Shown: piece by piece, positions 2,046 to 52,454 of the stretch
How positions within the stretch are numbered: position 1 is the first letter of the stretch
Layout: the number at the start of each line of letters is the position of its first letter
Assembly: GCA_944321985.1 (NCBI GenBank)
Contig: CALUNK010000136.1
Span: 1-56,593, forward strand
Length of the DNA: 56,593 nt
Source: Candidatus Methanomethylophilaceae archaeon
GTDB taxonomy: Archaea; Thermoplasmatota; Thermoplasmata; Methanomassiliicoccales; Methanomethylophilaceae
Reading direction: 5' to 3'
Notes under the pieces: model-generated
The model's input: only the letters and a program-made list of their open reading frames with translations
Told to the model about the DNA's origin: nothing
Databases searched by the model: none
Made by a program: the position numbers and the translations under genes

Positions 2046-3317
2046 TTACGTGTGGTGTATGTTTCTCCTTGATTTTATATTATGATACTTGGCTGAGAAC
2101 TTAGCTACTTCTCCTTCCCATATAGGCTGGTTTTTTTTCTTTTTGATTTTTTCTATTCCCTTGGGGATCGTCCCTCCGAGTTCAAGATAAACACGATATA
2201 GGCAATAAGATATCAATGGCGCAAGCATCAAAATAATCATATTGTTCAACCTTATCCCATCGAGGTATACAGACTCTATGGCTTTTGGATCTAAATTAGG
2301 CTCTTCGAATGGGAATAATGATTCTTCATGCCAGAATAGATTACTCCATCCCCGAGGATCATCAATACCTAAGTAGAAACAATATACCTCCTGAGCTGTA
2401 CAATCTTCTCCTAGGCAATCCATTGCCGATTTAAACATAGGTTCACCAGAAGTGAAAACATAGATGGTTGTAATGTTCAATGCAATTCTCATCGGAGTCC
2501 AATCCTGAACAGGCTTCCTTTCATGCACATTTTGTAGACCGTTTATAAGACTTATAACTGCAGGTATCAACCATTCTGGATTTGATTCTTTCAACCTTTC
2601 TACAAGGCATAAGGTTGATGTTACCAAATCATTTTTTCTAATCCTGTATTTGTACTGTTTACCATTATGCTTGTTCACAAAAACAATGTCATTTCCTTCA
2701 AAATACACATTCATATGCCTTAGAGCATGCCTTATGTGAACCGGAATCGGTCTGCTATCGTTATAGTCTGGATCTTTAGGAAACAGTTGATTAAGATCAG
2801 TAAGGAGTTTATTTGCCTCTTCATTTTTGTAGGAATGGCCCATGCCTGCAAGACAAATGATTGACAAACCTACCTCACACATTTCATAATCATAGTTGGT
2901 TGCCCATGGGCGGGTTGTAAATGTCTTGAATAGAAGTGATTTCAATTCTTCACTCTATTTGTATTTAGGCTTCCAAAGTATCGGGTCATCCTTTTCTCTA
3001 CGTACATGTGCAGAAAACCACATTTGCAGAAAATCTTCGATTGTTCCACAAATTTTGTATCTTTTTAAATGAACTTCTATTATTTTAACAAGGTCTAGTA
3101 CAGATGCAGGATCATTGTAAACTCCTATATTCATCATTCTGAATTCTTTCAGATAATCTTTTCCATATGGACATTTAATCTTGTCTAGAATCAACTCAAG
3201 GGTTGTGAATACATCCTCGATAGATGTCAAATCAATGGTTGATTCAGAATTATCGTTCAATCCGGTATGACATGTTCCGGTTGTTTCAAGCGTTTTTGTT
3301 ATGTTATTTCTGTTCAT
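2046..3317 (-). CDS. HEPN-like protein with an in-frame amber codon (possible pyrrolysine protein)
   Basis: Two open frames on the minus strand, 3317-2958 and 2945-2046, are in the same frame and are separated only by TAG at 2955-2957. Read through, they give one 423-residue protein with the amber residue at position 121. The second part has no ATG near its start, only TTG at 2945 with no Shine-Dalgarno sequence, which argues against a separate gene. The N-terminal part ends ...DDPILWKPKYK and continues SEELKSLLFKTFTTRPW. A segment HIRHALRHMNVYFEGNDIVF (second part, about residues 70-90) resembles the R-x4-H motif of HEPN RNases and the 'RN-A-x-A-H' strand of HEPN-type plasmid proteins. One hydrophobic helix lies near the C-terminus. 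I do not recognise the family beyond that. It lies in a defense island, upstream of RloA/RloB on the same strand orientation. Confidence 0.6.
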
Positions 3318-12205: not shown

Positions 12206-12427
12206 TCAGATGGCCTGCATCGGCAGCATACCAGCACAGTCTATGGCAAGCGCCAGAGCCTTCAGCATTAGCAGCAACAGGAACACCGGGTCCCTGACAG
12301 GGAATATCGCATGGGTGATTCCGCGCATCTTATACCCCGCGATGACGGCGACTGCCATCACCAGTATGCCGATGCACACCGACGATACACCTATCGGCAC
12401 TCCCTCATCAGAACACTCCGCCAACAC
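12206..12427 (-). CDS. Small two-helix membrane protein
   Basis: A 73-residue frame encodes two hydrophobic segments, VSSVCIGILVMAVAVIAGYK and DPVFLLLLMLKALALAID, separated by a short basic loop. It lies between a broken zincin gene and the DUF1269-like gene on the other strand. The start is uncertain (codons before 12427 lack a stop only briefly) and there is no clear Shine-Dalgarno sequence. I do not recognise a family. Confidence 0.4.
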   Translation of the reverse strand: MLAECSDEGVPIGVSSVCIGILVMAVAVIAGYKMRGITHAIFPVRDPVFLLLLMLKALALAIDCAGMLPMQAI

Positions 12428-12524
12428 TTCGCCCTCCGACGAAACTTCGTCCGCGATGGAAGAGGTTGTAAGAAAATCCTTTTATAGAAGCGATAATGGA
12501 GTTTCAAAATGAGGGGATACCGAC

Positions 12525-13079
12525 ATGGAAAACATAGTCATCTGCAGGTTCGGGGTTGAGAGCGAAGCCTACTAGGCGTTCAGCGACCTGAAGAACGATC
12601 CACACAACCACAGCTGTGACATCAGGCAGGTCACACTCGTCAAGCGCGAACTCGGCACATTCAAGGCGATCGACGAGTTCAACGATGGCAAATATGTCGA
12701 CGATACGTTCACCGGCGGTTTATTGGGAGCGTTCATCGGCATACTCGGCGGATCCATCGGGGTCCTCCTCGGGAGCGGGATTGGGTTCCTGGGAGGCTCC
12801 GCTAAAGACGCCAAGGACTTCGACAACGACGCCTCCATGATAGAGCGCGTGATCGACGACATCAGAGACGAGTGCGTATTCCTCGCGATCCTGGTGGACG
12901 AGGCGGGCCCCGAGATGCTGGACGCAAAGCTCTCCAGGTACGACCACACCGCCGAGAGGTACGACGCGTCCGAGATAAGGGCTGAGGTGAAGGGCGTCGA
13001 GAAGCTCCAGAAGCAGATGAGGAAGGACGCTCGCAAAGCCCTGCGTGAGAGCAAAAAGAACCGCCGCGAGGCCGAGTGA
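12525..13079 (+). CDS. DUF1269-like glycine-zipper protein with an in-frame amber codon (probable pyrrolysine)
   Basis: ATG at 12525 follows a good Shine-Dalgarno (GAGGGGAT). The frame reads MENIVICRFGVESEAY, then TAG at 12573-12575 as codon 17, then AFSDLKNDPHNHS and on without interruption to TGA at 13079, giving 184 residues. The segment before the amber codon (strand, then ESEAY) and after it (AFSDLK helix) together make the normal N-terminus of DUF1269-type proteins, 'F-x-x-E-x-x-A-x-x-A-x-x-x-L'. The early part QVTLVKRELGTFKA is followed by a glycine zipper with GGLLGAFIGILGG and GFLGG, and a charged helical tail. The TAG differs by one base from CAG, so the residue could be Gln in relatives. 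The first in-frame standard start after the TAG lies deep inside the domain, which argues for readthrough. Confidence 0.72.
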
Positions 13080-13359
13080 CCATCCGGACCTCCTGCGAGC
13101 GGACCGAAGGCCGATTCACGTCCCGTCGGTCCAATCGGGTGGGGGCTGGCGGGCCATTCCGCCAGTCGTCCACTCATGCCACTGGATGCAACCGTCAATG
13201 CGAGGTGGTTCGGGCATCCTCTCCACATCTTCACCCAACCATCGGGAAGGAAACACAGTTCCGGCTCAGGGTCATATCCACAGAGTCGGCGAAGGACGCG
13301 GCGATCCCGGGACCGGTCTCCTTCTGGTGTCGGTCTTCTGGCCGAAATTGGATAATTAA

Positions 13360-28914: not shown

Positions 28915-29877
28915 ATGAAAAAGCAGTTAGTCGTGCTGGCGATGATTCTGGTTCTGACAGGAGTCTCCGTGACGGCACTATGCGTTTATCAGGACGATGT
29001 AAGGTCGGACGTCCATGTGCTGACTCCGGGGTATCTGGAAAGCGACGATTATGACGCTATGGTAAGACTGGGCGATTCGAACTATTGGAACGTATCCCTG
29101 GAGTCTAGGGTGGACGCGTCATGCTGGACCGATTCAGGCATGGTCTGTTTGATAAGCGTGACCGTCAGCGTCAACCAGGACTACGTCTTTGAGACGTTCG
29201 GGCTCCGTTACAGCTATGTTTCTGACGGCGACTCGCTCATTCCCTCCGACGCCGCCTCGGACCAGGACATGGGGCCAGACGTGTCTCGCCAATATGTCGA
29301 TCCTGTGACGGGCGACACGCTGTTGTTCCGTGAATCCGGTGGTATGCTGGAGAGCATAAGGTTCAATGGAACCACCGTCGTGGGCGGTGAGGGTGATTTC
29401 GAGTATGCGGAATTCGACCTGGTGGTGACCTACGAGCCACAGCTGAAGTATGTGAGCAAACTCATCCTTCGCGATGCAGGCGATAAGACCGAGATGGCGG
29501 TCCAGGGGACGGAGAACGGGATTCCGGTCTCGGGGAGCCTGTTGATCTCGCCGATGCCTGCGGTCGTGAACTCCGCAGCCTATGTCTCCGAAAGACACAT
29601 TCTGTCACTGGAACTGTCCGGAACCCTGATTCCCCAGGAGCTGCTGTCCGTGGTTATGCCTGCCAACGGAGGGACTATCAATCAGATGCTATGCACAACA
29701 TCGTATCTGAGACAGGACAGTACATACATAGTTCCTGAAATCGAGTACGATTATGGGGTTGACGAGTACGGAAAGACAATGTTCACCATGTCTGGAACTG
29801 TAATGATGTATCATCTCGACGGAGACTGCTACGCGATCTCCAAAGAAACGGTCGAGTTCGACTACGAGGTGGTGTGA
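28915..29877 (+). CDS. Membrane-anchored exported protein of ABC cassette A
   Basis: This 320-residue protein has an N-terminal export helix (KKQLVVLAMILVLTGVSVTA) and an otherwise extracellular beta-rich body with motifs such as SYVSDGDSLIPSDAASDQD, YVDPVTGDTLLF and EYAEFDLVVTYEP. A paralog of the same layout at 49777-50733 shares 'SYM/V-x-D-x-x-x-LVP-x-DA', 'DP-x-TG-x-x-L-x-F' and the C-terminal 'ETVEF-x-YEV'. Its TGA at 29877 directly abuts the ATG of the ATPase. It probably works outside the membrane with that ABC transporter, either as a substrate-handling partner or as an immunity/sensor protein. This is inference. Confidence 0.7.
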   Translation: MKKQLVVLAMILVLTGVSVTALCVYQDDVRSDVHVLTPGYLESDDYDAMVRLGDSNYWNVSLESRVDASCWTDSGMVCLISVTVSVNQDYVFETFGLRYSYVSDGDSLIPSDAASDQDMGPDVSRQYVDPVTGDTLLFRESGGMLESIRFNGTTVVGGEGDFEYAEFDLVVTYEPQLKYVSKLILRDAGDKTEMAVQGTENGIPVSGSLLISPMPAVVNSAAYVSERHILSLELSGTLIPQELLSVVMPANGGTINQMLCTTSYLRQDSTYIVPEIEYDYGVDEYGKTMFTMSGTVMMYHLDGDCYAISKETVEFDYEVV

Positions 29878-30801
29878 ATGGGCGGTACGCTCGTCGTGGA
29901 GGACGTCATCAAGACGTTCAGGGGCTTCCGCGCGGTGGACGAGGTCTCGTTCACCGTGTCGGAGGGGAGCTTCACCGCCCTCCTCGGTCCTAACGGATCC
30001 GGAAAGAGCACCACGCTGAAGATGTGCACCAACCTGTTCCAGCCGGATTCCGGCAGGATCCTGGTCAACGGGATCGACGTCCGCGAGGACACCGTCGGGG
30101 CCATGTCCGGCGTGGGGTGCGTCATAGAGACGCCCGAGATCTATCCTGACGTGACCGGCAGGAGGTACCTGGAGTATCTCGCCGAGGTGTCCGGGATGAC
30201 GTCGGAGTCCGCCGCGTCCGAGGCCGAGAGAGTCCTCGGCATCGTCGGCATGTCGGACCGCGCCGACGGGAAGGTGAAGGGATACTCCAAGGGCATGAGG
30301 CAGAGGGTGGTCCTGGCACAGTCGCTGCTGGGCGACCCGTCCCTTCTGATACTGGACGAGCCCACGTCCGGCCTGGACCCGCAGGGGTCCGCGGAGTTCG
30401 GGAGGATCCTCACGGACCTGAACTCGCGGGGGAAGACCATACTGATGAGCTCCCACATGCTTCATGAGGTCGAGGGGCTCTGTGACAGCGCCGTGATAAT
30501 CAACCGCGGGAGGGTCGCCAGGCAGGGAAGCATCGAGGAGATCGTCAGCAGGTCCACAATCACCGTATCCACGGTAGGGGACGTGAGCCGTGACATTATC
30601 TCGATGGTTTCCGATATGCCTGCGGTCACCGAGGCCTCCGCCATCGACGGTGGATTGACCGTCAGGCTGGACGGCGGTCCGGAGAGGCAGGCGGACCTCG
30701 TGAAGGCGCTTGTTTCGATGGGCGTGCGCGTGTACGCGGTCAGAAAGGAGGATCCCCTGGAGGAGGCCTTCATGGACATAACCGGGGGTGCCGGCTCATG
30801 A
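29878..30801 (+). CDS. ABC transporter ATP-binding protein (cassette A)
   Basis: A complete ATPase subunit of 307 residues. Walker A is ALLGPNGSGKSTTLKMCTNL (about residues 34-53). A Q-loop region follows with GVGCVIETPEIYPDVTG. The signature is YSKGMRQRVVLAQSLLGDP, Walker B is LLILDEPTSGLDPQG, and the H-loop is MSSHMLHEVEG. The C-terminal 80 residues are the 'ISRSTITV...VRKEDPLEEAFM' extension of the CcmA/NatA-type exporters. ATG directly follows the preceding stop, and its own stop overlaps the permease ATG by 4 bases, so the three genes form one unit. Confidence 0.95.
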   Translation: MGGTLVVEDVIKTFRGFRAVDEVSFTVSEGSFTALLGPNGSGKSTTLKMCTNLFQPDSGRILVNGIDVREDTVGAMSGVGCVIETPEIYPDVTGRRYLEYLAEVSGMTSESAASEAERVLGIVGMSDRADGKVKGYSKGMRQRVVLAQSLLGDPSLLILDEPTSGLDPQGSAEFGRILTDLNSRGKTILMSSHMLHEVEGLCDSAVIINRGRVARQGSIEEIVSRSTITVSTVGDVSRDIISMVSDMPAVTEASAIDGGLTVRLDGGPERQADLVKALVSMGVRVYAVRKEDPLEEAFMDITGGAGS

Positions 30802-31598
30802 ACGCCGCATACGCGCTCAGGCAGGTGTCCGTGATCACGCGGTTCGAGGCCCGCAGGAAGGTCCTGAGCTGGAGGATGCTGTTCCCGATGCTCTGCGCGG
30901 CGGTCATATGCGTGCTGGCGTACACCACAGGGAGCGGCGCCGCATCGGGGATGGACGGCACGGAGGCGTCCAACGCGTTCCTGAGGCCGTTCATCGCCTC
31001 CGCGTCGCTGGTCCTGGCGATAAGCGCCACCGTGATGTCCACCGAGTCCCTCTCGGAGGAGTTCGAGCGCAGGTCGGGATACATAACGTTCACCAAGCCC
31101 CTCGGCAGGAACGTGCTGTTCGCCGGGAAGTTCCTGTCGGGGTTCCTGCCGTCCGTCGCCGTTCTGGCGTTCTACTACGCGGTGACGTACGCCCTGTGCC
31201 TAGCGGTCGTCGGCGGCGTACCCGGCTCGGCGTTGACCTCGGTGCCCCTTGCGCTGCTGTACCTCGCGGCGGTCACGGGCGTGTGCATGCTGTTCAGCGC
31301 CCTGGCGCCCAGGGGCAGCATGGCCATGATGGTGGCCTTCCTGCTGCTCGTGGTGCTGCAGATCTTCATGCAGAACGTGGGGTTCGACAGCGAGCCGTGG
31401 TACAGCCTGGGGTACGAGGCGGGGATAATCGCCGACTACCCCATAGGCAACCAGACGGTGTTCAGAATTGACGCGTCAGGGAACCTTTACACATCGGACT
31501 ATGTCCCGGACATCAGGATGGCCTGCGCGGTGATGTCCGTATACGCCATACTGTCGACGGCGTTCGCGGCGTTCGTGTTCAGGTACAGGAACATGTGA
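30798..31598 (+). CDS. ABC-2 type permease (cassette A)
   Basis: This 266-residue integral membrane protein has about six hydrophobic segments, including FPMLCAAVICVLAYTTGS, PFIASASLVLAISATVMS, SVAVLAFYYAVTYALCLAVV, SALTSVPLALLYLAAVTGVC and MVAFLLLVVLQIFMQNVG. The motif ESLSEEFERRSGYITFTKPL with the linked 'R-x-x-LFAGKFLSGFLPS' is the cytoplasmic coupling loop of NatB/ABC-2 permeases. ATGA overlap with the ATPase ensures cotranslation. The cargo is unknown. A RiPP-like cluster begins 14 bases downstream, so the pair may export its product. Confidence 0.88.
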   Translation: MNAAYALRQVSVITRFEARRKVLSWRMLFPMLCAAVICVLAYTTGSGAASGMDGTEASNAFLRPFIASASLVLAISATVMSTESLSEEFERRSGYITFTKPLGRNVLFAGKFLSGFLPSVAVLAFYYAVTYALCLAVVGGVPGSALTSVPLALLYLAAVTGVCMLFSALAPRGSMAMMVAFLLLVVLQIFMQNVGFDSEPWYSLGYEAGIIADYPIGNQTVFRIDASGNLYTSDYVPDIRMACAVMSVYAILSTAFAAFVFRYRNM

Positions 31599-31612: not shown

Positions 31613-32626
31613 ATGGTTGAAAACAACAATAATGGGTATAAAGACGAAGTCGTACCGTTTTCATTATCCATTGACGTAACTCATAGATGCAATTTAAGAT
31701 GTAGGCATTGTTATAATGAAAGTGGTTCTGGATCCCGTAAAGAGTTGACAGATGATCAATTATTGAGAATTACAAAACAAATAGCGAATTTACCTGTAGA
31801 ATCTGTTTGTCTTAGTGGAGGAGAACCGCTCATACGTAGCAACATTCTCATCTCTTTAGTAAAGGAATTGAAGGATTCTGGAGTAGGAACAATCAGTATG
31901 ACTTCCAACGGAATGATGATTTCTAAGGAAATTGTTTACAATCTGGCTAAAGCAGGTATGAACAATGTACAAGTAAGTGTGGATGGATTGCGTGATGCAC
32001 ACGATTGGCTTCGCAACAAGTCTGGATCATTTGATAAAGTAATGGAATCAATAAAAGTCATCATCGAAGCTGGTTTAGAGGTTAGTGTTGCATGTATTCC
32101 AAATAAGAAAAACTTCAACGATTTTGAGGATTTAATTTGCAATCTTGATTCTATGGGAGTGTCGATGTTTCGTGTCCAACCAGTTATGATTTTAGGACGT
32201 GCTTGTCAACTCAAAACAGCTTTACTATCTCAGTCCGATTATATCCGCTTATCGTTGATGCTTTCCAGAATGGCAGTCAATTCTAGAATGAAAATCGAAT
32301 GGGGTGATCCTGCTCAGCATCTTTTATATTTAGCCTCTGGCAATCAAGCGAAAATGTTGTTTATTGATGATTGTGGAAATATTTCTCTCTCTCCATTCGT
32401 GCCTATTCACTTTGGAAATGTAATGAAAAAGACTTTGAAAGAATATGTTGAAGCAGGACTTTTAAATGTATGTACGTCGAATGATGAACTTCGTCAATTT
32501 TTTGGTTTATTCGGAAGTTCCATATTGATGTCTCCAGACGAACTTTCTGAACAGACTGTTAGTCACAGACTTCATTGTTCTAATTTTTCAAACATGTATT
32601 TCGTTAATCTTAATCGGTATGTCTAA
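31613..32626 (+). CDS. Radical SAM enzyme of a RiPP-like cluster
   Basis: Residues 26-33 read C-N-L-R-C-R-H-C, the CX3CX2C motif that binds the [4Fe-4S] cluster. SLSGGEPLIRSN (about residues 66-78) gives the GGEP SAM-binding motif, and SVDGLRDAHDWLR follows. The C-terminal part has a single DDCGNISLSPFVPIHFGNV strand and few Cys, so it lacks a full SPASM set of clusters. The base composition falls sharply (AT-rich) relative to the ABC genes. It starts 14 bases after the permease stop and overlaps the next gene by 8 bases. A PqqD-like RRE and a candidate precursor peptide downstream make a peptide-modifying role likely. Confidence 0.85.
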   Translation: MVENNNNGYKDEVVPFSLSIDVTHRCNLRCRHCYNESGSGSRKELTDDQLLRITKQIANLPVESVCLSGGEPLIRSNILISLVKELKDSGVGTISMTSNGMMISKEIVYNLAKAGMNNVQVSVDGLRDAHDWLRNKSGSFDKVMESIKVIIEAGLEVSVACIPNKKNFNDFEDLICNLDSMGVSMFRVQPVMILGRACQLKTALLSQSDYIRLSLMLSRMAVNSRMKIEWGDPAQHLLYLASGNQAKMLFIDDCGNISLSPFVPIHFGNVMKKTLKEYVEAGLLNVCTSNDELRQFFGLFGSSILMSPDELSEQTVSHRLHCSNFSNMYFVNLNRYV

Positions 32627-34843: not shown

Positions 34844-35050
34844 ATGGTTGAAGAGTATATCGCTCCAAGGATAGAAACAGAGTCGTCATCTTCTAACTTC
34901 TCAGTCATAATCGCACCGTTAATTGTGGGAAGTACAACCAATAATTTACGGCAAAAACAAGAGCTTGCTAATGATTATTCTTTATTAAAGTTTACAACAG
35001 AAGTTTTGTCGGTGACCAAATGTCAGAATGCTCATCACACAAAATATTGA
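34844..35050 (+). CDS. Candidate RiPP precursor peptide
   Basis: A 68-residue peptide begins MVEEYIAPRIETESSSSNFS. The Y-x-A-P-x-I stretch at residues 5-10 resembles the YxxP-type leader motif bound by PqqD-like RRE domains in lasso-peptide and related precursors. It is followed by a Ser-rich hinge, a hydrophobic VIIAPLIVGSTTNN segment, and a C-terminus ending in C-Q-N-A-H-H-T-K-Y. The gene directly precedes and overlaps by 31 bases the RRE gene, with a TATA-like sequence (TTTATATTTA) about 30 bases upstream. The boundary between leader and core is unknown, and so is the modification. Confidence 0.55.
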   Translation: MVEEYIAPRIETESSSSNFSVIIAPLIVGSTTNNLRQKQELANDYSLLKFTTEVLSVTKCQNAHHTKY

Positions 35051-35346
35051 AAAATGTGCTTTATGGTTGTGTTGCATCTTTACCGGAAAACATAAGCGGT
35101 TGGTACGAAGATGGTGAACTAGTAGTTGTTACGACGATCTTCAATAAAGATGATAAATTTAGTTTTAATAAAACAGCCATTTTCATTTATGAATTACTTG
35201 CCGGGAGAGAGCATGTGGAGGTGGATGTTTTAATTACTGAAGTTGCCACTCATTATCACTTGTCAAATCTAAAATTAATACGTGAAGATGTTTACACATA
35301 TATTCGTGAATTATGGTCTTTGGCTTTGATAAAGTGGGTTGGATAG
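35020..35346 (+). CDS. PqqD-like RRE protein (RiPP recognition element), followed by in-frame amber
   Basis: ATG 35020 has GGTGA five bases upstream. The 108-residue product fits the PqqD fold: a strand LVVVTTIFNKDDKFS, then NKTAIFIYELLAGREHVEVD, TEVATHYHLSNLK and REDVYTYIRELWSLALIKWV, the family pattern 'N-x-T-A-x-x-I-x-E-L-L-x-G...V-x-x-D-V-x-x-F-x-x-x-L-x-x-x-G-L-I-x-W'. The last codon is TAG at 35344. The same frame stays open to 35443 and, past a second TAG, to 35799, so read-through would yield a 259-residue RRE-GNAT protein. The RRE would bind the leader of the upstream precursor candidate. Confidence 0.7.
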   Translation: MSECSSHKILKNVLYGCVASLPENISGWYEDGELVVVTTIFNKDDKFSFNKTAIFIYELLAGREHVEVDVLITEVATHYHLSNLKLIREDVYTYIRELWSLALIKWVG

Positions 35347-35364
35347 AATCCATTATGCGACATT

Positions 35365-35799
35365 TTGCTCGAATCAGACATATTTACGATACGTCGTGCC
35401 ACTCACGATGATGCAAATGCTATTACAATATTTTTATCAAATTAGGATGTATGCACAGATCCATCTGTACAGATTGGTTTGACCGAATCTGAGATTATTA
35501 AATATTCTAGAGATGATACAATAAATATATTTCTGATGGAATGTAATAGAACATTAGCTGCATTGGTCATCATAAACAAATCAAAATATGGGGAGGTTTT
35601 ATTGTCCGGGGGATCATGTACAAACGTTAAATTAATAATGGATTGTCTTAGGAGGAGTGGATTTTATATTGCTTTTATAACCAGAGTCGCATTGGATGAT
35701 TGGTGTACAAGTAAATATTATAGGGAGGTTGGAATGGATTTTTGTGGCACTCTTGAAAAAGAGTTAAAAAGCGGAGATGTAAATATTTATATTTATTGA
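35365..35799 (+). CDS. GNAT-like acetyltransferase domain with an in-frame amber codon
   Basis: In the same frame as the RRE gene, residues read ESDIFTIRRATHDDANAITI, the first strand and helix of GNAT acetyltransferases. Then TAG at 35443-35445 is followed by DVCTDPSVQIGLTESEIIKY, LMECNRTLAALVIINKSKYG and later DDWCTSKYYREVGMDF, resembling the 'Y-x-x-x-GF' end of a GNAT domain. The only standard start near the beginning is TTG 35365. The usual coenzyme-A loop (Q-x-x-G-x-G) is not seen, so activity is uncertain. Its amber codon interrupts a region that continues naturally on both sides, which suggests pyrrolysine or a recent nonsense mutation. Confidence 0.5.
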
Positions 35800-37091: not shown

Positions 37092-38420
37092 GTGGGACAG
37101 AAAACCACAGTTATATCTGTAGAAAGTAATACGATGCCAGTGCTGAGAAGCCTGTATGTAAGGAATGCTACAGGTCACATAAGAATCTCGTGTATGTCAA
37201 GTGCAGCATCATGCAGGCCGTCAGATGATGAAAATCGTGTGGCTGCAGCTAAATATAATGCCCGATCCTATTTTGAAACCATGGTTCGTTGCACTGTGAT
37301 TCTGGGAGCAGGTGCTGTGTATGAGGCAAGTGGCGAGATGAACGATGGAAAATCTGTGAGTACAGAATCCATAACCTGTTCCCTTTATACTCAGTATGGC
37401 GATCCAATAGAATCAGAAGAATGTATCACATTGAGAAGGATTGTGGAATCCAACGGGGGTCCAGGCAACTTCAATTTTGAGGACGTCTACGAATTGCTCA
37501 TGGAGATCAGGGATTATGTCATGGGCATCTCTGAAGATCAAGATGGTTCCATGAGAAAAACCATGGAAACCTGTGGATTGAAGAAAGATGCCACTGTCGG
37601 TTATATAAATAGTCTGATTGACCGCCTCCTTCTAAGAGTCTTGCTTTCCATAACACCATATGATGGGAAGGAACCTCCTGCATGGTTCTCTGGTTTCTTC
37701 TCCAGATTGGAATCATTGAACGATGACGCGATTTCGTTTGATTTTTGCGTGCTCAATTATGACACCTGGGTGGAAAAATCTCTCAATCGGTATAATGACG
37801 GGTTCGTCAGAGCTAAACTTGATTCTGGAGATCCTGATGAATATTCCATTTTCAAGAAATCAATGATCGCATCTTCTGATGATTCTAATAGGCTGTGTCA
37901 TCCTCATGGATGTGTGAATTACGGCGGACCTCTTAATGGAAAACCCCATGGAGATGCGGAAATTTGCCTGTGGAATCATTGTATTTCGGTATCAAGGAAT
38001 GGAATGCAGTATTCGGAAGGGGATAGTAGCAAACCTGTGCTGTCACCGATAGTAACCGGAAAAAGGAAAAAGAGGAACTTCTACTACGAACCTTTCAAAA
38101 CGTATTTAGATTTGATAGAGGGCCCAATGGCATCCAATGAGATCGTATTGATCATTGGATATGGTTTCGGAGATCCACACATCAATGAGATCATAAGAAA
38201 ATACAAGAAAGGTTCTGGAAAACACCTAATCGTAATTTCGCCGTTCTCAGAAAAGACCAAGGAAGATATCAGAACTGTGTGCGAATATGATGTCGAACAA
38301 AAAGAGGGAGCGTGGATGTCGGATGATGCTTATGCAGTATGGTTTATGTCCGGATTTAAAGAGATGACTATGAACGATGATGTCATAGAAACTATAAGGG
38401 ATATGGCAAAGCAACATTGA
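37092..38420 (+). CDS. SIR2-like NAD-binding protein
   Basis: Key SIR2-type motifs appear in order: CTVILGAGAVYEASG (the glycine-rich NAD site), DFCVLNYDTWVEKSL (the 'T/L-NYD-x-x-E' motif), RLCHPHGCVNYGG (the active-site His region) and EIVLIIGYGFGDPHINEII, the 'GYS/GF-x-D-x-x-I' end. Such SIR2-like proteins lack the histone deacetylase zinc module and act as NAD-consuming defense effectors (Thoeris ThsA, DSR, SIR2-HerA). GTG 37092 is the earliest start; ATG 37281, seven codons before the glycine-rich motif, is a strong alternative. No ThsB or HerA partner is directly adjacent; a TIR gene lies 1 kb downstream. Confidence 0.7.
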   Translation: MGQKTTVISVESNTMPVLRSLYVRNATGHIRISCMSSAASCRPSDDENRVAAAKYNARSYFETMVRCTVILGAGAVYEASGEMNDGKSVSTESITCSLYTQYGDPIESEECITLRRIVESNGGPGNFNFEDVYELLMEIRDYVMGISEDQDGSMRKTMETCGLKKDATVGYINSLIDRLLLRVLLSITPYDGKEPPAWFSGFFSRLESLNDDAISFDFCVLNYDTWVEKSLNRYNDGFVRAKLDSGDPDEYSIFKKSMIASSDDSNRLCHPHGCVNYGGPLNGKPHGDAEICLWNHCISVSRNGMQYSEGDSSKPVLSPIVTGKRKKRNFYYEPFKTYLDLIEGPMASNEIVLIIGYGFGDPHINEIIRKYKKGSGKHLIVISPFSEKTKEDIRTVCEYDVEQKEGAWMSDDAYAVWFMSGFKEMTMNDDVIETIRDMAKQH

Positions 38421-47505: not shown

Positions 47506-49151
47506 ATGCTGGTATGATTCTTGTAACAAGTATAAAGATGCGATCACACCAAACTAAAGACAAAGCAAATCTAACCCTGTTCCTACAACTGTCGAATATT
47601 AACTGCTTTTGAATCTGAAAAGATTCGTGTGAATGTCTCACCAGTGATGAATGCACGGTAATATCACGAGACCGAAGTTCTTCAGACACCGTACTAACTA
47701 ATCGTCTTTAACGAGCTGGTGCTGGTTTGCAGGAATTAGTTCAAATGAGATATCGTTAAGTGTATGATGATCCTGTTCTCTTGAAGCGTCTCGGGAAGGA
47801 CAGGGAGTATGGTAATCTGATGATTCCGATTATATGAGGACGATAGACTCCAATTCTGTCTGAAGCATGTGTACTTTGACATCAAATGAGTTGTGTCGAT
47901 CAGAGTTCAACGGTTGCAAGAATGTCTGCGCCTAATTGTCCTAGTACATGACAACTGCTTTGCTTGGAATCACACACTTTCACATCTTCCCTGAGAATCG
48001 CCAGAGACTTCAAGGGTCACATTTTCAGATTGCCTTTTACACTCACATATGAAAAGTGCTACAGGAACAAGGACATCCACCTATTAAAGGGGATTCGAAG
48101 AGAGAATCGTATATTTGTAAGAAACAAAAGAGGAAGAACAAATCACAATCTCGTTGGGCATATCTCAACATGGTGGACTAATCAACCGTCCTCGAACACA
48201 TCCATCGTCACAGAGGTCTTTCCGAATCCGAGGATTCACACGGCCTTCGACGATGGGATGATGGTTCCAACTAGGTCACAGATTGATAATTACTGGAGTC
48301 AGGATTCCTAGTTTCAAGAGAAGAAAGAAGATGCTGACTCCAATTGTTGTGTGCATGAACAGCTCGCTGGATTTACCGTCCCCACAGGTATCTCCTTTTT
48401 ACGACTTTCGAAACACCCATGGATGCCAAACATATGATAGTAATGAGCGTGGGCGCGATAGGAAGCTTAAATCTTTACCCTTAGGGTTTTTAAGCTTCTA
48501 GATAATTCTGACTATGTTCTATTTCGGTTACCGAGTTAGCGGCGACCGACCAGAGTGTAGCGAGGGTCAGACCTGATATGGTTGCAGTGATGGACGTTAT
48601 GAGTTCTGAAAAGTTTATGCTATCTCTGTAGACGCAGATTTTGAACTGACGGTATACTTCGATTTTCTTAAACAGAGTAATCGGATCGAATTCTAGAATG
48701 TCCTTCTACTCTCTGGTACCCGATTGTATCTGTAATTTAAATTCCAGGTACAGTATGGTGGAAGAGATCTCTCGTCAACCTGCTTTTAGGAGTTATGAAC
48801 CAGATTGATGACAGGTTTAGATTGATGTCTCATCATGAAGCGTGTGGACGACAATTGGAATATCATGATGGTGCAGATTACTTAGGAAGGCTATTAACAC
48901 ACGGGATTGTGGTAATCGCTGATTCGGATTTCTTATTGTTGACATGCTTTCGAAGGGGTTTCACGTTTCAATCCATACTATCGTCATTTTTTAGTGTATG
49001 GTATTTCTAATTGACGGTTATCGCGGAACACAGTGTTCACAATATGTTATCTTATAACATTCAATTTTGAATCAGCAATAATCAGAATCAGTACACGTTT
49101 TGATGCATACTATTTAAAGTAGTATGGTGATTTCAAATATGAGGGATGTAA
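47506..49151. other. Long stretch without a supported gene
   Basis: About 1.6 kb of AT-rich sequence contains only short frames (47964-48311, 48795-49010 and similar) without ribosome sites, motifs or codon bias. Runs such as ILGFGKTSVTMDVFEDG, readable on the minus strand near 48230 with stops close by, hint at decayed P-loop genes. No tRNA, CRISPR or clear repeat is seen. It probably is a graveyard between the TIR operon and the DUF1508 gene. Confidence 0.45.
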
Positions 49152-49776: not shown

Positions 49777-50733
49777 ATGAGGGGGAAGCAGCTCGTTTGT
49801 CTGGCGACCGTTGTAATCATAATAGTCGCAACTTTTGCGGGATTGTCCTGGTATCGTGACGAAGTTAGATCTCAGACATTTCCAGAGGACGGTGCTCTAG
49901 ATGGTTCGGTCTACGGAAATGTCGGCGTGTTCGTAGAGGGGGTGTCCCTGACAGCACTGACACTCAAATCGAAAGTGACTCCAATCTACAGTACGGATGA
50001 AGGAACATATTGTGAACTCACCATGAACGTCTACTCTAACAACACCGATTCCATTCAATTCTATCTAAGATACAGCTATATGACAGATAGTAAAGAACTG
50101 GTTCCCGTGGATGCTATACGGGGGTCAGGCGGAGGGTCGCAATGGGAGTACCTGTACACCGATCCGCTGACTGGACACGAGCTCACGTTCTTCGTGAATG
50201 ACGGTAGCTTGGAATCTGTCAGGGACAAGGGGCGGACGGTGATCGAGTACGATGGATCTCTGGAATTCGCTGAGTTAGACATGAGTGTAGGCTATCATCA
50301 GAATGTGAGGTACGTCAACAGTGTCATGAACATGGACCCTACGCCTACAACAGTCTATCGTATTTCTGGATACGAGAACGGCACCCCCAGGCAGGGCACC
50401 GTCACTGTGACTTCGGTATCTTCCAACCTGGCTAACTACAACATTACGGAGTATGTGAGGGTCGAGGCGGACATTCCAGGAACCCTCCTTCCCGAGTTCA
50501 TTACGAACTTCTATTCCCGTCTCAGTGAGAGTGGGTCGTTCTACAATCAAAATGGCAATCTTTCAATTCTTCTCGCAGATGGAACATACGTAGAATCAGA
50601 TTTCGTTTTCAAGGTAGACACGACGCAAGGCTGGGAATTCCTCATGAATGGAACTGTAACCTACTACACGTTAGACGATCAATGTGATGTAGTCACAGAG
50701 GAGACATTGGAGTTCTACTACGAGGTGATGTGA
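49777..50733 (+). CDS. Membrane-anchored exported protein of ABC cassette B
   Basis: ATG 49777 follows GAGGGTATC. An export helix (QLVCLATVVIIIVATFAGLS) precedes a beta-rich extracytoplasmic body of about 290 residues with YSYMTDSKELVPVDAIRGSG, YTDPLTGHELTFFVNDG, EFAELDMSVGYHQNVRYVN and a C-terminal EETLEFYYEVM. Layout and motifs match the cassette A protein at 28915. The TGA directly abuts the ATG of the ATPase. It probably acts outside the membrane with this transporter. Confidence 0.7.
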   Translation: MRGKQLVCLATVVIIIVATFAGLSWYRDEVRSQTFPEDGALDGSVYGNVGVFVEGVSLTALTLKSKVTPIYSTDEGTYCELTMNVYSNNTDSIQFYLRYSYMTDSKELVPVDAIRGSGGGSQWEYLYTDPLTGHELTFFVNDGSLESVRDKGRTVIEYDGSLEFAELDMSVGYHQNVRYVNSVMNMDPTPTTVYRISGYENGTPRQGTVTVTSVSSNLANYNITEYVRVEADIPGTLLPEFITNFYSRLSESGSFYNQNGNLSILLADGTYVESDFVFKVDTTQGWEFLMNGTVTYYTLDDQCDVVTEETLEFYYEVM

Positions 50734-51657
50734 ATGGGAGGAACGCTTGTAGTGGAGGATGTTGTGAAGACGTTCAGGAATGTCACGGCAGTCGACCACG
50801 CCTCATTCACCGTCGATGAGGGAAGTTTTACCGCACTGCTAGGGCCGAACGGTTCTGGAAAGAGTACCACGCTGAAGATGTGCACAAATCTGTTCCAACC
50901 GGATTCCGGTAAGATATTGGTGAACGGCATTGACGTTCGTGAGGATACGGTAGCGGCAATGTCGGGCGTGGGATGTGTCATCGAGACCCCGGAGATCTAT
51001 CCGGATGTGACCGGCAGGGCGTACCTGGAGTATCTGGCGAGAGTGTCAGGAATGTCGTCCGAATCCGCGCGTTCGGAGGCAGAGAGGGTCCTGGACATCG
51101 TAGGGATGTCCGATCGCGCTGATGGAAAAGTGAAGTCCTATTCGAAGGGAATGAGGCAGAGGGTTGTTCTGGCGCAGTCCCTGCTAGGGGACCCTTCAAT
51201 GTTGATACTCGATGAGCCGACTTCGGGTTTGGACCCCCAGGGGACCATCGAGTTCGGAAGGATACTTACCGAACTGAACAGGGAGGGGAAGACCATACTG
51301 ATGAGCTCTCATATGCTTCACGAGGTAGAAGGTCTGTGTGACAGCGCTGTGATAATCAACCATGGTAGGACGGCCGCACAGGGGAGTCTGGAGGACATTA
51401 CCCGCAGATCCACTGTCACCATTTCCGTCATCGGTGATGTCGAATCTGGTGTGATCTCAGTGGTTTCCGGCATGTCAGGTGTTATAGAGGCATCAGAAGT
51501 GAGCGGAGGGCTCAAAGTCAGATTGGAGGGCGGTCCCGAGAAACAGGCGGACCTGGTCAAGGATCTCGTATCCATGGGTGTGCGCGTATACGCTGTTAGG
51601 AAGGAGGATCCGCTGGAGGAAGCCTTCATGGACATTACCGGGGGCGATTCCGAATGA
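50734..51657 (+). CDS. ABC transporter ATP-binding protein (cassette B)
   Basis: This 307-residue ATPase is close to cassette A in protein. Walker A is ALLGPNGSGKSTTLKMCTNL, signature YSKGMRQRVVLAQSLLGDP, Walker B MLILDEPTSGLDPQG and H-loop MSSHMLHEVEG. The C-terminal VRKEDPLEEAFMDITG is almost identical in both. Codons differ at many third positions (more AT here), so the copies are not a recent duplication. It overlaps the permease gene by 4 bases. Confidence 0.95.
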   Translation: MGGTLVVEDVVKTFRNVTAVDHASFTVDEGSFTALLGPNGSGKSTTLKMCTNLFQPDSGKILVNGIDVREDTVAAMSGVGCVIETPEIYPDVTGRAYLEYLARVSGMSSESARSEAERVLDIVGMSDRADGKVKSYSKGMRQRVVLAQSLLGDPSMLILDEPTSGLDPQGTIEFGRILTELNREGKTILMSSHMLHEVEGLCDSAVIINHGRTAAQGSLEDITRRSTVTISVIGDVESGVISVVSGMSGVIEASEVSGGLKVRLEGGPEKQADLVKDLVSMGVRVYAVRKEDPLEEAFMDITGGDSE

Positions 51658-52454
51658 ACGTTTGGTATCCGTTCAGACAGGTCTTCGTGATTACCGGGTT
51701 CGAAGCTCGTAGGAAAGTGATAAGCTGGAGGATGTTGTTCCCGATGCTTTGTGCTGCTGTGATATGCATTCTGGCGTGGAACACAGGTAGCAACGAGATG
51801 ACTAGGTATGAGGGAACCGAGGCCGCATTGATACTTTTGAGACCGTTCGTCGCATCTGCATCTTTGGTTCTGGCGATTAGCGCAACGGTCATGTCCACCG
51901 AGTCCCTCTCCGAGGAGTTTGAGCGCAGGTCTGGTTACATCACATTCACCAAGCCCCTAAGCAGGCACGTGTTGTTCGCAGGCAAGTTCCTCTCGGGGTT
52001 CTTGCCGTCTCTTGTGGTCTTGGTGTTCTATTATGCGGTTACGTTCATCGTCTGTGCAGTGCTCGCGGGCGAGGTCCCATCCAGGGCTTTAGTGGCGATT
52101 CCACTTGCTGTGCTCTATCTGTTTGCCGTTACCGGGTTGTGTATGCTGTTCAGTTCGCTTGCTCCAAGGGGTAGCATGGCCATGATGGTCTCGTTCCTCT
52201 TGTTGGTAGTGTTGCAGATATTTATGCAGAATGTCGGATTCGAGAACGAGCCATGGTACAGCATAGGCTATGAAGCTGGGATACTCGGTGATTATCCGGT
52301 GGGCGTACAGACCGTGTTCAATATGGGCGATAACGGGGTTCTCTACACTAATGATTATGTCCCTGACATAAGGATCGCTTGCCCAGTCATGGCAGCATAC
52401 GCCTTGATATCCACAGTTATTGCGGATTTAGTGTTCAGGTATAGAAACATGTGA
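51654..52454 (+). CDS. ABC-2 type permease (cassette B)
   Basis: The 266-residue permease is collinear with the cassette A protein, with the same coupling loop ESLSEEFERRSGYITFTKPL, LFAGKFLSGFLPS and MVSFLLLVVLQIFMQNVG. About six hydrophobic helices are visible. The ATGA overlap couples it to the ATPase. No RiPP-like genes follow this copy; the next 460 bases hold no gene. Confidence 0.88.
   Translation: MNVWYPFRQVFVITGFEARRKVISWRMLFPMLCAAVICILAWNTGSNEMTRYEGTEAALILLRPFVASASLVLAISATVMSTESLSEEFERRSGYITFTKPLSRHVLFAGKFLSGFLPSLVVLVFYYAVTFIVCAVLAGEVPSRALVAIPLAVLYLFAVTGLCMLFSSLAPRGSMAMMVSFLLLVVLQIFMQNVGFENEPWYSIGYEAGILGDYPVGVQTVFNMGDNGVLYTNDYVPDIRIACPVMAAYALISTVIADLVFRYRNM

Follow-up and report, generated by a model that had tools for sequence, protein, structure and literature searches.

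The window analysed here, a stretch of 56,593 nucleotides of an archaeal genome of the order Methanomassiliicoccales, carries on its forward strand an otherwise open gene of 184 codons (12525-13079) which, read directly from the sequence, is interrupted by a single in-frame TAG at codon 17 (12573-12575). The reading frame starts with an ATG at 12525, runs through 16 codons to the TAG and continues for 167 open codons to a TGA at 13077-13079, and neither a second stop nor a frameshift was found in the 167 codons following the TAG. Together with a Shine-Dalgarno-like GAGGGG 8 nt before the ATG, this reading bears out the initial annotation, in which the TAG was described as splitting what is otherwise one protein. 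The features of the locus, all on the forward strand, are as follows:

12480..12486, forward: TTTTATA, which we take to be a possible archaeal TATA box (sequence, by eye only)
12511..12516, forward: GAGGGG, Shine-Dalgarno-like, 8 nt before the ATG (sequence, interpreted by eye)
12525..13079, forward: full gene, 184 codons through the TAG, for a DUF1269-like/glycine-zipper protein, predicted to be membrane-associated (translation, whole-length homolog alignment, coding score)
12525..12572, forward: 16 codons before the TAG, for the initial Met, strand 1 and the opening turns of helix 1 (Met shared by homologs, shuffle test, structure model)
12573..12575, forward: in-frame TAG, codon 17, proposed pyrrolysine (Pyl) codon (sequence, sense codons in homologs)
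12711..12809, forward: glycine-zipper/hydrophobic stretch, residues 63-95 (weak Pfam match, conserved glycines in six sequences)

A sigma-70 promoter scan of the region was disregarded, since the host is an archaeon and such a scan is not meaningful there. No PYLIS element was detected at E values up to 5 within 12400-13100, and the RNA-element test for PYLIS membership returned a fold z-score of -0.70 after the TAG; this element is optional for pyrrolysine decoding and its absence is no bar to it.

Homologs and the position of the residue

Five homologs were identified, all bacterial: one in a Sphaerochaetaceae metagenome-assembled genome (MAG), two in further genomes of the same order, and two on the Streptococcus plasmids pSI01 and pFW213. 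All five begin at the same Met as the focal gene, so that none starts only after the TAG, and they align across the TAG site with 34-35% identity, the opposing residues being Q (CAA), Q (CAG), M (ATG), M (ATG) and K (AAG). The streptococcal plasmid proteins share the start, the length range and about 34% identity with the focal product, but carry Gln at the site and are bacterial. In the order to which the Sphaerochaetaceae genome belongs, 5 of 139 genomes gave matches, comprising, besides the query, the two full-length homologs and two weak partial matches that were left out of the homolog set. Within the phylum of the window, matches occurred in 4 of 389 genomes, and the three besides its own were rejected as orthologs as their matches extend over no more than 40-50 positions of the model, around the glycine zipper. 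The plasmid search returned the two Streptococcus plasmids and the phage search no homolog, while two rounds of searching in viral contigs revealed no relative encoded in 110 and 201 pattern stretches, respectively.

The 15 residues between the Met and the TAG yielded a summed BLOSUM62 score of 175 over the five homologs, a value reached by none of 5000 shuffles (maximum 124). Among 214 places in the sampled DNA where a start is followed by 15 open codons and a TAG, the focal one alone attained 175, the runner-up scoring 44. Based on the genome's own codon usage, the coding score amounted to 0.74 bits per codon before the TAG and 0.69 after it, compared to a mean of 0.47 for 305 training-set genes and -0.14 for the overlapping antisense ORF.

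The initial annotation had termed the gene 'DUF1269-like', with family-like sequence on both sides of the TAG. The Pfam DUF1269 (PF06897) match is confined to residues 63-141 and scores 19.5 bits, below the gathering cut-off of 26.9, whereas the Sphaerochaetaceae homolog (L001) scores 31.3 bits against the same model. The database records of the pSI01 and pFW213 proteins name them as DUF1269 domain-containing (WP_015063313.1 and WP_012720136.1), and the focal protein aligns at full length, glycine-rich core included, with both of them. Judged by such sequence comparison, the focal protein is homologous to DUF1269 proteins, yet it is no PF06897 member by its own score; the family label therefore holds by homology but not by Pfam membership. 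Since the Pfam match covers residues 63-141 only and is sub-cut-off, the family likeness of the part before the TAG is upheld by the five homologs and not by Pfam. A match to Pfam Gly-zipper_YMGG at residues 63-95 is likewise weak and under its cut-off.

A structure model built on an alignment of two sequences (mean pLDDT 72.9) comprises a strand at residues 3-9, a helix at 12-24, strands at 33-42 and 45-53, helices within 65-83, a subsequent alpha/beta part and a long helix at 148-183. No fold in the PDB was matched by this model at an E value of 0.001 or better. In helix 12-24, residues E14, A15 and F19 are invariant in the homolog alignment, and residue 17 lies opposite A15 and F19 on a hand-drawn helical wheel and is thus probably exposed. 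Probable exposure, combined with the variable residues of the homologs, would indicate tolerance rather than function of Pyl at this position.

Genomic setting and distribution

The assembly is incomplete and MAG-like, being 86% complete in 141 contigs. The window contig belongs to this lineage, as in its tRNA-Ala region (640-780) it shares 92-97% identity with the five best matches from the genus. The window itself represents an accessory island, in which genes for defence (Shedu SduA, two ThsB-type TIR proteins, AbiLi and SIR2) occur alongside immunity-like ones. This island spans 670-55000 beside tRNA-Ala(CGC) and also holds a large DUF4253/DUF7832/SUFU/Imm33 immunity-like pair. Two look-alike three-gene ABC transporter cassettes, with nearly equal gene lengths, lie at 28915-31598 and 49777-52454, and a SIR2-domain relative of the window gene at 37092-38417, located in another same-genus genome (L042, G077:C6:89969-90841), carries one in-frame TAG. 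The focal gene gave no match to PADLOC models at an E value of 0.001.

No ortholog of the focal gene was found in the 146 other genomes of the order searched, its own being the only carrier among 147, and the five bacterial homologs have sense codons at the position of the TAG. We infer that the gene was transferred here from bacteria or is otherwise rare in the order.

Pyrrolysine machinery and the use of TAG in the genome

The initial annotation had pointed to the pyl genes as a check on its proposal, and pylT, pylS, pylB, pylC and pylD are all present in the genome. On contig C11, a tRNA-Pyl-like sequence, pylS (without an N-terminal domain), pylC, pylD and a RamA-type activase are consecutive, while pylB is located on contig C14 (score 410 bits, cut-off 348). 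The tRNA-Pyl-like sequence folds into a cloverleaf with CUA in the anticodon loop; ARAGORN listed no tRNA on the stretch that includes it (L006). The mtbB gene scores above its NCBIfam cut-off and has a PYLIS match, and beside it two mtmB-like genes were recognised by their position and by PYLIS_1 matches below the gathering score, no NCBIfam match being obtained for either at 1e-10. All three MttB-family matches in the genome carry one TAG. Judging from this gene content, we regard the organism as a methanogen of the Methanomassiliicoccales type.

The use of TAG was assessed in 24 stretches totalling 474,369 bases, window included (approximately a quarter of the genome), in which TAG-read cases are over-represented, three of the stretches having been picked for pyl or mtt genes. 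The 363 coding-like ORFs of at least 60 codons and with a stop end in TGA (322), TAA (29) or TAG (12). Five of the 12 TAG-ended ORFs are interrupted genes, namely the two mtmB-like genes, mtbB, mttB on contig C66 and a CLC channel gene. The others, in L012, L021, L025, L031, L034, L037 and L039, leave at most seven real TAG stops in 363 (1.9%), a figure that still counts the ORFs in L037, where a TspO domain follows the TAG, and in L012. UAG hardly serves as a stop in this genome, at most 1.9% of the sampled ORFs having it as a plausible real stop.

Six TAG, nine TGA and three TAA places (from 6196, 16570 and 5275 stops in six frames, respectively) combine an in-frame stop with coding signal before and after it. 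At seven of the nine TGA places an ATG follows the stop within three codons, as expected of neighbouring genes, and the nine TGA and three TAA places are mostly neighbouring-gene-like, an assessment based on domains for the one in L023 and on the distance to the next ATG for the others. The L023 case (4668), a TGA-split look-alike, proved by its domains to be two genes and not an interrupted one. On this rough comparison, TAG interruption is without a clear TGA or TAA counterpart, the TGA place at L037 18863 and the three TAA places aside. A Dus gene in L021 (353 + 140 codons) was rejected as TAG-read, as its relatives match to about residue 343 and the extension resembles the antisense of another gene; its TAG is a probable real stop. 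Two TAG places in L026 with coding signal on both sides were set aside as they lack a Pfam match, and no family spanning the TAG was found for the other TAG-split frames of the window (2046-3317 and 1190-1723 on the reverse strand, 35020-35799 and 47964-48437 on the forward strand). The frame at 2046-3317 consists of about 120 and 299 codons divided by one TAG, with no family or plasmid match, while that at 35020-35799 is PqqD-like, its codons 109 and 142 being TAG, and lies downstream of a radical SAM gene (31613-32626).

Two further genes in this genome carry stray in-frame TAGs. The CLC chloride-channel gene (L024:2076-3470, reverse strand, on contig C5 of this genome) is interrupted by a TAG at codon 218, which falls within the Pfam domain. 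Of 30 other genomes of the genus, 16 hold a relative, none of them with a TAG and one with a TGA, and the site varies in the 11 relatives retrieved, being T, P, R, A or G, or falling in a gap. Downstream of the TAG, comparison with four relatives gave a dN of 0.14-0.23 and a dS of 0.88-1.06 (dN/dS about 0.15-0.26), much of which may predate the TAG. The second gene, an MttB paralog (L012:98-1573, reverse strand, contig C31), has Ile in place of the canonical Pyl and carries a TAG at codon 19, where the other two MttB paralogs have Glu or Arg. By appearance, the TAGs of these two genes and that of the focal gene are events of one kind.

Interpretation of the in-frame TAG

The read-through proposed in the initial annotation is well supported by the full pyl set, a homologous frame on both sides, the rarity of TAG as a stop and the other TAG-containing genes. 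Two observations that would have refuted it according to the initial annotation, homologs beginning only past the TAG and a genome devoid of pyl genes, were looked for and not encountered. Decoding of the focal UAG as pyrrolysine is the best explanation of these data, to which, arguing from sequence, we would assign a probability of roughly three in four. The gene would then be intact, the organism's own tRNA-Pyl (CUA anticodon) decoding UAG to give one protein of 184 residues. This would consist of an N-terminal beta-alpha-beta-beta part, a membrane-seeking glycine-zipper stretch and, at the C-terminus, an alpha/beta part that includes a long charged helix. Where UAG is hardly a stop and tRNA-Pyl is available, replacement of a Gln codon (CAG) or a Lys codon (AAG) by TAG would be nearly neutral at a helix position that is exposed and variable, and could persist. 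The focal Pyl is probably a tolerated Gln- or Lys-to-Pyl substitution with no pyrrolysine-specific role.

Since the gene occurs in its own genome only, some probability remains for a newly arisen nonsense mutation and for an erroneous base. A recent nonsense mutation may have killed a dispensable, horizontally acquired gene whose decay is yet to follow, most mRNAs being translated only as far as the UAG; the strain-specific occurrence of the gene (1/147 genomes) in an accessory island, a setting in which gene decay is frequent, would suit such a history, which we nevertheless consider unlikely given that the 167 codons hold no further stop or frameshift, that the coding signal past the TAG is strong and that, of three possible stops, the gene acquired the one which the organism can read. 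Less probable again is a sequencing or assembly error in an ordinary gene whose true codon is CAG (Gln): TAG is one base off CAG, the codon of one homolog, and the assembly is a single draft, but the focal gene bears no other sign of error and stray TAGs occur in other genes of the genome. It is very improbable that translation truly ends at the UAG, leaving either a peptide of 16 residues or a short product initiated anew at TTG 12723. That TTG, the earliest of the usual in-frame starts past the TAG, opens a 118-codon frame, but no ribosome-binding site was seen before it by eye and initiation there costs the first 66 residues, including strand 1, helix 1 and strands 2-3, all kept in the homologs. 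Equally improbable is the reading of UAG by another tRNA, inserting for example Gln, which occupies the site in two of five homologs, as a dedicated tRNA-Pyl is present and no other suppressor tRNA was seen in the parts of the genome searched.

In the methylamine methyltransferases MtmB, MtbB and MttB, Pyl is conserved and catalytic. The same machinery reads UAG as Pyl in these enzymes as is proposed for the focal gene, in which, unlike in the methyltransferases, the position is variable and probably exposed. An archaeal code in which all TAG codons stand for pyrrolysine has reportedly been described, with proteomics, by Kivenson and colleagues (Science 2025).

The initial annotation regarded a protein of this type as an unexpected case, a view that is not supported, since predicted non-methyltransferase Pyl proteins are common in the order, according to the sections consulted of two studies (PMC4153887, PMC5011839). 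Borrel and colleagues reported that TAG accounts for 1.6% of stops in Candidatus Methanomethylophilus alvus and 11.3% in M. luminyensis, and predicted 16 further Pyl proteins in the former besides the methyltransferases; its sense-like TAGs occur in Cas1, MtxX and a transporter, among others, half with TAG-free homologs in relatives, and the authors proposed that a suppressing background stabilises such TAGs (PMC4153887, in the sections consulted). Very rare TAG stops and sense-like TAGs in unrelated proteins are thus common to that organism and the present genome, while a DUF1269-like family is not among the Pyl entries in the consulted part of its table (PMC4153887). The methanogenic archaeon ISO4-H5 possesses 46 amber-containing genes, methyltransferases included, and, as here, these are diverse and comprise hypothetical and accessory genes but, unlike here, no DUF1269-like protein is named in the consulted parts of that report (PMC5011839). 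The literature searched, which takes in a minority of subscription journals, yielded no DUF1269 protein reported to contain pyrrolysine. Most likely, the focal gene adds one more case to a phenomenon already described in relatives.

As such, the gene would be a clear-cut case of an apparently neutral pyrrolysine outside the methyltransferases, in a protein of bacterial type, and gene prediction under the standard code will cut genes of this sort short in these archaea. A broader and more tentative notion, which we consider possible though on balance doubtful, is that UAG has in effect turned into sense throughout the lineage, specifying pyrrolysine in every gene, whereby acquired bacterial genes gain Pyl by drift and a Pyl on an exposed helix might have gained a role. 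The weight of the finding would rise if the residue were shown by proteomics and the gain of the TAG shown to postdate the transfer and, if UAG is indeed read as sense in all genes, the focal gene would represent a horizontally acquired gene captured by a changed genetic code.
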